Below are positions 4,787 to 37,018 of a stretch of DNA of 64,000 nucleotides, piece by piece; position 1 is the first letter of the stretch; each line of letters opens with the position of its first letter. A program made the translations under genes and the position numbers. A model generated the notes under the pieces. The model was not told where the DNA came from and did no database searches. It saw only the letters and a list, made by a program, of their open reading frames with translations. The stretch is from assembly GCA_903834765.1 (NCBI GenBank), contig CAILKE010000004.1:310001-374000 (forward strand), given 5' to 3'. This DNA is from an uncultured Bacteroidota bacterium (GTDB lineage Bacteria; Bacteroidota; Bacteroidia; B-17B0; Aurantibacillaceae).

Positions 4787-5752
4787 TTATTTTTTATCAG
4801 TTTCTTTTTTCTTAAAGTATTTTCTTAAAAGTATATTGTGCTTTAGGGCTTCCATATTTACTTTAAATCCTTCTGCACCGCCATCGATGTTTTTCATAGC
4901 ACTTTTTAAATCCCTTACAAAGGTTGTATCCATTACTAACATGCCTAAAGTTCCCTCTCCTTTATTTATTTTACCAGTTAAATTTCCTAAATCGCCAGTA
5001 ACGATCGCTAATTTATCTCCAGCAATATTTAATTTTACGATAGTATGTTCAAATTTCCCCGAAAGCGTAGTGTCCATTAATAAAGCTCCAACCAACCCTT
5101 TTCCAGATTTCATCTGACCCGAAATATCTTCAAAATCGCCAGTAACAATTGCCATTCTATTACCGGCCAACTTAATACTGACGATAGCTTGTTTGACGTT
5201 GTCTGCTACTACAGTGTCTTGCAATATACTCCATAACGTATTCCGGCTATTTAATTTTTTAGCCATTGTTTTTAGGTCAGTTGTAATATCTTTAATATTT
5301 TCGTTAGTTGCATTGAGTGTACGTAACATCTCATCCGTTTCAATCGCTTTAACGGTTTTGATTACATCCCCATCTACTACATGCGCTAAATCCCCATCTT
5401 TTACAGAATTAATATTTACTAATTTATTTCCCATTAAACCATCAGTTCCTATAGTGGCTAATGAATTTCTTTTTATGTAATTTTTTGCTTTTTCTTCAAT
5501 AAGCATCACCACATTAATAGATGAATCTGTTGCAATTTCAATGCTTTCCACGGTTCCAACATTAATGCCCGCATAGCGTACATTATGACCAACCATTAAG
5601 CCATTGACATTATAAAAAGGCGCACTAATTTTAAAAGTAGAACCAAATAAACTTCTTTTTGCTCCTATCATATAAAGCACCCAAATTAGAAAGACTATTC
5701 CTGCTATGACAAAGGCACCTAAACGTAAATTTTTTGATATTTCTGTTTTCAT
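4787..5752 (-). CDS. mlaD: MlaD-family (MCE domain) substrate-binding protein
   Basis: 321 aa. There is one N-terminal membrane helix (about residues 11-30), then an MCE domain (about 38-115) with the family segment YAGINVGTVESI, then a long helical, repeat-like tail (residues ~135-300) in which a segment of the type KLAGNRMAIVTGDFEDISGQ recurs about three times. MCE proteins form rings in the periplasm that carry phospholipids between the membranes for the Mla ABC importer. It is the third gene of mlaE-mlaF-mlaD but is separated from mlaF by 146 bp containing hairpin element copy D. mlaB and mlaC are not seen nearby, which I believe is common in this phylum. The gene symbol rests on domain and context. 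Confidence 0.85.
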   Translation of the reverse strand: MKTEISKNLRLGAFVIAGIVFLIWVLYMIGAKRSLFGSTFKISAPFYNVNGLMVGHNVRYAGINVGTVESIEIATDSSINVVMLIEEKAKNYIKRNSLATIGTDGLMGNKLVNINSVKDGDLAHVVDGDVIKTVKAIETDEMLRTLNATNENIKDITTDLKTMAKKLNSRNTLWSILQDTVVADNVKQAIVSIKLAGNRMAIVTGDFEDISGQMKSGKGLVGALLMDTTLSGKFEHTIVKLNIAGDKLAIVTGDLGNLTGKINKGEGTLGMLVMDTTFVRDLKSAMKNIDGGAEGFKVNMEALKHNILLRKYFKKKETDKK

Positions 5753-5773
5753 GTTTAAATATTTAATGTTTTT

Positions 5774-5848
5774 GTATTGGTCACATGGAATATGCCTATC
5801 TTCATTTATGTGCGTTTAAGCAAACCATTTGATAGTAGCTATTTCATA
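5774..5848 (-). repeat. Short hairpin element, copy D (in front of mlaD)
   Basis: Read on the minus strand it starts ATGAAATAGC (ATG at 5847-5845) and ends TATTCCATGTGACC, the same borders as copies at 9480, 36304 and 36393. AUAGC (5842-5838) can pair with GC(A)UAU (5795-5790) with one bulge, and CTATC (5835-5831) pairs with GATAG (5800-5796). The loop sequence is unlike the other copies. It ends about 20 bp before the mlaD start, in the gene's orientation. See findings. Confidence 0.65.
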
Positions 5849-9479: not shown

Positions 9480-9551
9480 ATGAAATAGCCTTGTGTCGAA
9501 TATCGCTGCACGAATTAAGAAACAAGGCTATTCCATGTGACAAATAAAAAA
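9480..9551 (+). repeat. Short hairpin element, copy A (5' leader of TlpA-like gene)
   Basis: Begins ATGAAATAGCC and ends GGCTATTCCATGTGACAAATA. ATAGCCTTGT (9485-9494) and ACAAGGCTAT (9522-9531) form a perfect 10-bp stem. The pairing continues outward as ATGAA/TTCCAT with one A-C mismatch. The loop is 27 nt. It ends 12 bp before the ATG of the next gene. Confidence 0.75.
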
Positions 9552-9562
9552 AACTTCTACAA

Positions 9563-10078
9563 ATGAAATCAGCATTTATTTTATCTTCAGCAATTATCCT
9601 CTTGTTCTCTGCGTTTACAAAATTTGACGGAGGGAAGTTGCCTTCAGCTACTATTAAGAAATTAGACGGATCATCGATCAATTCAAATACCATTTCGAAT
9701 AATGGAAAGCCAATGATTATTAGCTTTTGGGCTACTTGGTGCAAACCATGCAAAAAAGAATTAGATGCAATAAATGAAGAATATGCCGAATTAGTAAAAG
9801 AAACTGGCGTTAAATTAATTGCTATTTCTATAGATGATGCGCGTAGCTCTGGAAAGGTTGTGACAGACGTTAAATCTAAAGGCTGGGAATATGAGGTTTA
9901 TATAGATGAAAATCAAGATTTTAAAAGAGCGATGAATGTCAATAATGTGCCTCATACATTTTTAATTGATGGTAATGGTCAAATTGTATGGAGCCATAAT
10001 TCTTATGCAGAAGGCGATGAAGATAAATTATTTGAAAATGTACGAAAGCTTGCTAAAGGCGAAAAGTTGATACATTAA
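9563..10078 (+). CDS. TlpA-like thioredoxin-family protein
   Basis: 171 aa. A hydrophobic N-terminus (residues 1-18) acts as signal peptide or anchor. A TlpA/ResA-type thioredoxin domain follows, with the active site WCKPC (Cys60, Cys63), the FWATWC lead-in, and the cis-Pro region VPHTFLIDG (Pro130). It is expected to work as a thiol-disulfide reductase in the periplasm. It heads a co-directional set with a DUF6029 barrel and an Omp28-like lipoprotein that itself carries CxxC, so a role in handling disulfides of those envelope proteins is plausible. Hairpin copy A lies immediately upstream. Cytochrome c maturation is another possible role, but the ccm genes are 30 kb away. Confidence 0.85.
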   Translation: MKSAFILSSAIILLFSAFTKFDGGKLPSATIKKLDGSSINSNTISNNGKPMIISFWATWCKPCKKELDAINEEYAELVKETGVKLIAISIDDARSSGKVVTDVKSKGWEYEVYIDENQDFKRAMNVNNVPHTFLIDGNGQIVWSHNSYAEGDEDKLFENVRKLAKGEKLIH

Positions 10079-36300: not shown

Positions 36301-36385
36301 CAAATGAAATAGCTATGTGCTGAATTGTAAAAATGCGAAAGAATATTACATAGCGTATTCCGTATAACAACTTAAAATAAATAAA
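36301..36385 (+). repeat. Short hairpin element, copy B
   Basis: Starts ATGAAATAGC (ATG at 36304) and ends TATTCCGTATAAC. ATA-GCTATGT (36309-36318) pairs with ACATAGC-G-TAT (36348-36358) with one bulged G. The stem sequence differs from copy A but pairing is kept. It lies just upstream of copy C in the same orientation. Confidence 0.65.
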
Positions 36386-36390
36386 ATAAT

Positions 36391-36482
36391 ATATGAAATA
36401 GCCATGTTTGCCGAAACACAAACACATCCCGATAGCTATCGGGAGAAGATAAACTGGCTATACCATATGGTAAATAAAAAAC
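36391..36482 (+). repeat. Short hairpin element, copy C, with a 30-bp palindromic insertion
   Basis: Starts ATGAAATAGCC (ATG at 36393) and ends GGCTATACCATATGGTAAATA. ATAGCCATGTTTG (36398-36410) would pair perfectly with CAAACA (36419-36424) joined to TGGCTAT (36455-36461). The 30 bp between these two pieces (36425-36454) contain the 16-bp palindrome CCCGATAGCTATCGGG (36428-36443). The element ends about 15 bp before the lipoprotein start at 36497. Confidence 0.72.
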
Positions 36483-36496
36483 AATAATTTAGACAT

Positions 36497-37018
36497 ATGA
36501 AAAAATTAGCTTTAGTAATCTTAACTGTTGCGTCATTTTATAGTTGCGATCGTATTAATCAAAAAATTGCCATTAAACATAATGATGCTGTTATAGAAGC
36601 AAGCGATAAAGTTGTGTTTGCTTTTGATAAATTAAATAATTCTTTGGCAACGTTCAACCCTGACAGTATTGACCTAGCTTTAGCAGCTTACAATTTGCAA
36701 ATAAATAATTCTATACTAGAACTTAATCAAGCAGTTTCAATCAATGATACTTCATTAAAAGTAGGAACACGTGAAATGCTTTATGTTTTTAAATCGGTTG
36801 GAAGTAATGAGTTTAAACAAATAAGAACCATTTATCAAATTCCTGATTCTTTATATACCGAAAAAGAAGAGAAAGAAGTAACTGATATTGCTTCGGCTAT
36901 TGACGAAAAAATAGAAGCAGCTCAATTAAAGCAACAAAATATTCAAAAAGCGTTTGCTAAAAGATTCAACTTTGAATTGATGTTTAATAAAGATTCGCTG
37001 AAGAATAAAGCGCATTAA
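36497..37018 (+). CDS. Hypothetical lipoprotein
   Basis: 173 aa. The signal peptide has a lipobox at residues 14-17 (FYSC, Cys17). The mature protein is almost entirely alpha-helical by composition, with long polar helices and no recognisable enzyme motif. I do not recognise a family with confidence; small helical lipoproteins of this kind are common in Bacteroidota. It is preceded by two tandem copies of the hairpin element (B and C), which is the most notable thing about it. Its 3' end is 30 bp from the convergent hemW gene, with no obvious terminator between. Confidence 0.7.
   Translation: MKKLALVILTVASFYSCDRINQKIAIKHNDAVIEASDKVVFAFDKLNNSLATFNPDSIDLALAAYNLQINNSILELNQAVSINDTSLKVGTREMLYVFKSVGSNEFKQIRTIYQIPDSLYTEKEEKEVTDIASAIDEKIEAAQLKQQNIQKAFAKRFNFELMFNKDSLKNKAH

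Follow-up and report, generated by a model that had tools for sequence, protein, structure and literature searches.

The window, that is, the whole stretch of 64,000 nucleotides analysed from an uncultured Bacteroidota bacterium, contains four copies of a short hairpin unit. Each unit ends at the base before a start codon, at 5752 (minus strand), 9563 or 36497, or before the next copy, as listed here.

4787-5752, minus strand: gene with copy 1 at its start codon, MlaD family (Pfam MlaD, E 7.5e-16)
5753-5847, minus strand: copy 1, a hairpin unit located with the covariance model, directly 5' of the ATGAAA start of the MlaD-family gene
9480-9562, plus strand: copy 2, a hairpin unit (stem 9480-9494 with 9522-9536), directly 5' of an ATGAAA start
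9563-10078, plus strand: gene with copy 2 at its start codon, AhpC/TSA-thioredoxin-like (Pfam)
36304-36392, plus strand: copy 3, an older unit, head-to-tail with copy 4; the sister species G010 has a diverged ortholog
36393-36496, plus strand: copy 4, a young unit between AATAATAT and ATGAAAAAATTAG; G010 has the empty site
36434-36451, no strand assigned: CCCGATAGCTATCGGG-type palindrome in the loop of copy 4, common to one subfamily
36497-37018, plus strand: gene with copies 3 and 4 at its start codon, 173 aa, lipoprotein-like N-terminus by eye

A covariance model run over the whole window recovered the four loci named in a previous sequence-only reading (E<0.001) and no others. The loci were thus correctly placed, while the borders given there were too narrow, as the full unit continues through an A-rich tail; the main feature, namely that the right end of the unit lies exactly at a start codon, was absent from that reading. 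Over the 91 bases covered by the model, copy 4 matches copies at three further loci exactly, and the palindrome in its loop is probably a separate REP-like repeat. A Pfam search with the product of the gene at 36497-37018 yielded no match.

Architecture and pairing of the unit

The unit spans approximately 83-104 bp. It begins with ATGAAATAGCC, continues with an imperfect hairpin and closes with an A-rich tail ending in ACAT, which is directly followed by ATGA(A) belonging to the next gene or the next copy. In the consensus of the 3' part the hairpin closes with GGC(g)TATACCAT or TATTCCAT, followed by ATGACAAnTAAAAAACAATAAATATCTACAT (or ...AATTTAGACAT). The tail is rich in A at positions -10, -11, -14 and -17 to -21 relative to the start codon; its base at -3 is C instead of the favoured A, and the tail therefore does not constitute an ideal initiation leader. 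A built-in promoter of the type TAnnTTTG was present in only 2 of the 127 distinct copies of our catalogue, and no intrinsic terminator in gene direction was found in the scanned stretch of the window.

To assess the pairing we used an alignment of 67 distinct copies, in which 90.9% of the cells of the outer hairpin are paired. Both sides have changed in 5 of 10 pairs and in 18 cells, where shuffles give 1.4 and 1.8 and none of 500 attains this level; as the alignment was fitted to the model these counts lean towards it, and the result is backed by the plain sequences and by the loss of the covariation when the pairing partners are slid by 1-3 columns. At stem position 9 alone, G-C, A-U, C-G and U-A all occur. 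The excess of compensatory changes expected from the earlier proposal, that the stems differ with pairing kept under selection on structure, is thus present: the stem pairing is under selection, and the covariation fits RNA and folded single-stranded DNA alike. Likewise, the A4.C mismatch noted before in the window copies is retained across the 67 copies, and position 5 is unpaired in most of them, as would follow from a left arm tied to ATGAAA and a right arm under a different constraint. When folding was compared with shuffled sequences, three of six sequences, including two of the four window copies, were clearly better (z -4.5, -5.3 and -4.4), and the remainder gave values from -0.5 to -1.1; several copies thus fold weakly.

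In contrast to the earlier impression that the loops are unrelated, the motif GCACAAACACAAATGAAGATA recurs in the loops across copies and genera. Such a large conserved loop would be unusual for a purely transposition-related hairpin, and counts against that description.

Distribution of the family

The sequence-only reading had proposed a search for further copies and a comparison with Rfam, including Flavo-1. A first covariance model built from eight copies revealed about 46-52 copies in the own genome (G000), with 52 places at E<5 and 48 at E<0.01. Comparable numbers were obtained for G013 (about 43) and G016 (about 50-52; 99% complete), and 16-19 copies for G009. In the genus, 17 of 20 genomes contained matches at E<=0.1; G012, G018 and G019 are free of copies. 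In the order, which as sampled consists of one family only, 55 of 87 genomes and 7 of 10 genera were positive under stricter scoring, and a second model, built from 68 diverse copies, was positive in 53 of the 87. The family is therefore not confined to one genome. Beyond the order, the wider phyla were covered by a strict pattern only, which, when run over 84,980 species genomes, yielded 46 stretches, all from MAGs of Bacteroidota, one of them labelled Chitinophaga. As matches also occur in the one- and two-contig assemblies G022 and G023, they do not represent an assembly artefact. No real match was found in phage, plasmid and viral-contig collections.

With regard to Rfam, no family scored above the gathering score, and Flavo-1 was absent even at E<=10. 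The units share with Flavo-1 and other Rfam leaders a structured, leader-like position in Bacteroidota, but differ from them in the lack of any match at the gathering score.

Movement and junctions with start codons

The sister species G010, the closest relative, shares 81-97% identity with the own genome over most matched gene fragments. At seven loci, comprising the PSD gene, the genes at L061, L051, L059 and L113 and the window genes starting at 9563 and 36497, G000 has one or two units at the start codon where G010 has none and the flanks are joined directly. The continuity of these flanks indicates clean insertions. At the 36497 start G010 contains the diverged copy 3 without copy 4, which makes copy 3 the older one. 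Moreover, identical copies occur at different genes, in up to five places in G000 and in some cases between species, indicating recent movement. Precise excision in G010 would look alike at single loci; the identical copies argue for insertion.

Two further loci deserve mention. At L009 and L035 (G000:C22 and G010:C562) an orthologous old copy is present in both species and ends at a degenerate ATGTGAAATAG; it seems to provide the upstream gene with its stop codon (..TCAGT ATG AAA TAG). In addition, thioredoxin-like genes in two genera are each preceded by a copy (9480-9562 in the window, and L256 in G047). Since the sister G010 has no copy there, the two seem to have inserted independently at one and the same start codon.

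At L113 the target reads ATGAAT and the left end of the unit still reads ATGAAATAG, so that bases 5-6 there are part of the element. This observation bears on a terminal-inverted-repeat MITE derived from a DDE transposon, for which the ATGA present at both ends would represent a 4-bp target duplication. Any duplication comprises at most 4 bp (ATGA), and its left copy is element-like; bases 5-6 on the left stay element-like with differing targets (ATGAAT, ATGACT). As the ends are not inverted repeats (ATGAAATAGCC versus ATGTAGATATT or ATGTCTAAATT) and no long relative was present among the right ends examined, we regard this origin as very improbable.

Of the 127 distinct copies, 38 stand in front of a further copy in tandem arrays, and 89 are array-terminal. 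In 76 of the latter the unit abuts the ATG of an open reading frame, in gene orientation, where the frame had to comprise at least 50 aa or to run past the stretch read. The 88 ATG junctions read ATGAAA (70), ATGAAT (9), ATGAAG (3), ATGTGA (3) and ATGACA, ATGACT and ATGCAT (1 each). ATGAA is thus found at 82 of 88 ATG junctions versus 13 of 50 called gene starts in the window (p ~ 1e-40), and the 76 of 89 frame starts compare with 13 of 39 non-coding ATGAA sites in the window (13 starts and 26 others, that is, an expectation of about one third; p ~ 4e-24, and still 2e-7 with 60% expected), although these p values overstate the strength because related copies were treated as independent and the gene calls are crude. 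Taken together, the insertions of the element are clean, place its right end immediately 5' of ATGA (in most cases ATGAA) and occur overwhelmingly at start codons.

In a few copies (L056, L066, L079, L082 and L098) the adjoining ATGAAA is not the start of a gene, which indicates that the motif itself is a target. The excess of start codons relative to other non-coding ATGAA sites may stem from survival, with insertions elsewhere being lost, from a targeting preference that reads beyond ATGAA, or from both. Most of the identical, and hence young, array-terminal copies in G000 are also located at starts, the numbers being small. An insertion actively directed to translation starts, beyond survival there, by way of the mRNA, the ribosome, the transcription bubble or an enzyme reading TATGAA plus context, is in our view conceivable but rather unlikely.

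The location of the units could alternatively be read as that of a cis-regulatory RNA, such as a riboswitch, a thermometer or a protein-binding leader, which would have been spread or conserved for regulation, with mobility being secondary. The position in the 5' leader in gene orientation, the conserved unpaired loop, the covarying stems, which would serve RNA and single-stranded DNA equally, and the mini-ORF ATG AAA TAG (MK-stop), conserved in 113 of 127 copies, are consistent with such a function. The leader position is explained, however, by insertion occurring at start codons. The genes behind the copies are functionally mixed (MlaD and thioredoxin-like by Pfam; PSD, lepA, sufE, gcvP and thymidylate synthase by eye), the sister species has the same genes without the unit, several of the copies are not followed by a gene, Rfam provides no match, and the loop can hold a nested palindrome. 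Thus, regulation would seem an unlikely primary role.

Proposed mechanism and relation to known elements

We consider it very probable that the units constitute a family of non-autonomous mobile hairpin elements of approximately 83-104 bp that insert at ATGA(A), mostly at start codons, and bring along an A-rich leader. As the unit begins with ATGAAA, a further unit can insert at its left end, and this accounts for the head-to-tail arrays. A trans-acting enzyme would recognise the hairpin, probably in folded single-stranded form. On its bottom strand the element follows the target TTCAT and has TTTCAT as its own end, corresponding to an insertion geometry of the IS200/IS605 type, and ATGGTATA at the hairpin foot could pair with TATTTCAT as a possible guide. 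It is this likeness to the IS200/IS605 target and guide logic as described in PMC6006769 that favours such a mode of recognition. With respect to the bottom strand the empty sites agree with TTCAT|element, but ATGA is also present at the left end. With derivatives of IS200/IS605 the element would share insertion next to a short fixed motif with no clear duplication, and it shares an end resembling the target and the guide-like pairing at the hairpin foot; it differs in having one hairpin instead of two subterminal ones, and no Y1 transposase was detected in G016.

The same geometry, together with the short imperfect palindrome, the high copy number, the mobility and the presence of RAYT-type genes in some of the genomes, would also fit a REP/REPIN-like element moved by a RAYT or another Y1 transposase. 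Both are short, palindromic, extragenic and non-autonomous, and hairpin-based mobility of a single strand is plausible for both. REP/REPIN sequences are defined by a GT[AG]G or CGTC tetranucleotide at the hairpin foot (PMC6006769, PMC3733652), whereas the element carries no such tag, its left end being ATGAAATAGCC and its right foot CCATATGAC. Furthermore, it inserts exactly before start codons and has a long A-rich tail inside the unit. In a family search over the genus, neither G016 nor G009, both rich in copies, yielded a match to Y1_Tnp (PF01797). Apart from one sub-threshold match, no copy was located near the retrieved Y1 genes, and the RAYT of the own genome is flanked by a different palindrome. 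A RAYT-driven origin therefore appears doubtful. The earlier suggestion of a mobile, REP-like hairpin holds with respect to mobility, given the empty sites, the identical copies, the arrays and the seven genera, and fails with respect to the features of RAYT-linked REPs. The RAYT-like gene lies at L012 (G000:C53, 1260-2100) between CCTGTCAGGTTTT/AAACCTGACAGG palindromes and represents a separate REP system.

A miniature integron-like cassette, with a folded attC-like hairpin as the substrate of a mobilising tyrosine recombinase, would likewise account for one imperfect hairpin per unit with a conserved mismatch and optional bulge, for the head-to-tail arrays and for the short shared core, and integron-type integrases do occur in the genus. 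Unlike attC sites, the element has no GTTRRRY core and no R/L boxes, its boundaries being ATGA and ACAT; it contains no cassette gene and is dispersed at many gene starts. Moreover, the integrase (TIGR02249 searched over the genus) does not track the copies: G012 has one and zero copies, G009 and G015 show only weaker, Xer-like matches, and no copies were found near ten integrase loci. We therefore judge a cassette to be improbable. The integron-type tyrosine recombinases at L300-L303 measure about 380-540 aa, and three carry long N-terminal extensions; downstream of L301 and L302, repeats of the GTGTTAG/GTGTTATG type may mark a Bacteroidota integron.

A crude motif scan of 63 ORFs around seven dense clusters revealed no recombinase or transposase, and inspection of right ends without a hairpin in four genomes revealed no longer autonomous versions; the few unexplained right ends in G000 are diverged elements or elements with nested inserts. 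Three copies that differ in their tails (L272, L128 and L297) contain a REP-like CCCGAATCAAGTTCGGGACAAGTT palindrome precisely at CCAT|ATGAC or CCAT|ATGG; it is itself an insertion directly before ATG, nested in the element.

As to the host, the original promoter would stay upstream, and the element would provide the unchanged start codon with a new A-rich leader, while the original leader would now face the two-codon ORF ATG AAA TAG; this may be why insertions persist at start codons. In F. johnsoniae, A at -12/-13 and A-rich, weakly structured leaders favour initiation (PMC6847099). The tail agrees with this preference from -10 to -21, though not at -3. The predicted accessibility around the start was higher at five of seven filled sites, equal at one and lower at one, with no overall reduction. 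Insertion at start codons that is nearly neutral is thus plausible from these predictions.

The nearest precedent for repeats ending at start codons is provided by the TAACTGA repeats (PMC4679880), which also end within a few bases of start codons, are gene-oriented and are patchy in Bacteroidetes and other phyla, with some relatives lacking them. They differ in being heptamer direct repeats without a hairpin or insertion units, and their mobility was not shown. The element lacks defining features of a RAYT-linked REP, a two-hairpin IS200/IS605 derivative, an integron cassette and a terminal-inverted-repeat MITE, and by analogy it behaves like a member of the REP or MITE class. A hairpin element inserting at start codons is not described in Rfam or in the open-access papers searched. 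The units appear to form a family of tiny mobile elements, so far undescribed, whose landing site is very unusual and which occurs in a single, little-known order of Bacteroidota.

As a rule, small mobile elements come to rest at sites where they cause the least damage. By inserting between the leader and the start codon of housekeeping genes and bringing a ready-made leader, the present element in effect rewrites the 5'-UTR of dozens of genes per genome. Leader turnover thus becomes a datable and testable process, and the landing at start codons raises the question of an enzyme that finds them. Such an activity might offer a precise tool for swapping 5' leaders in Bacteroidota.
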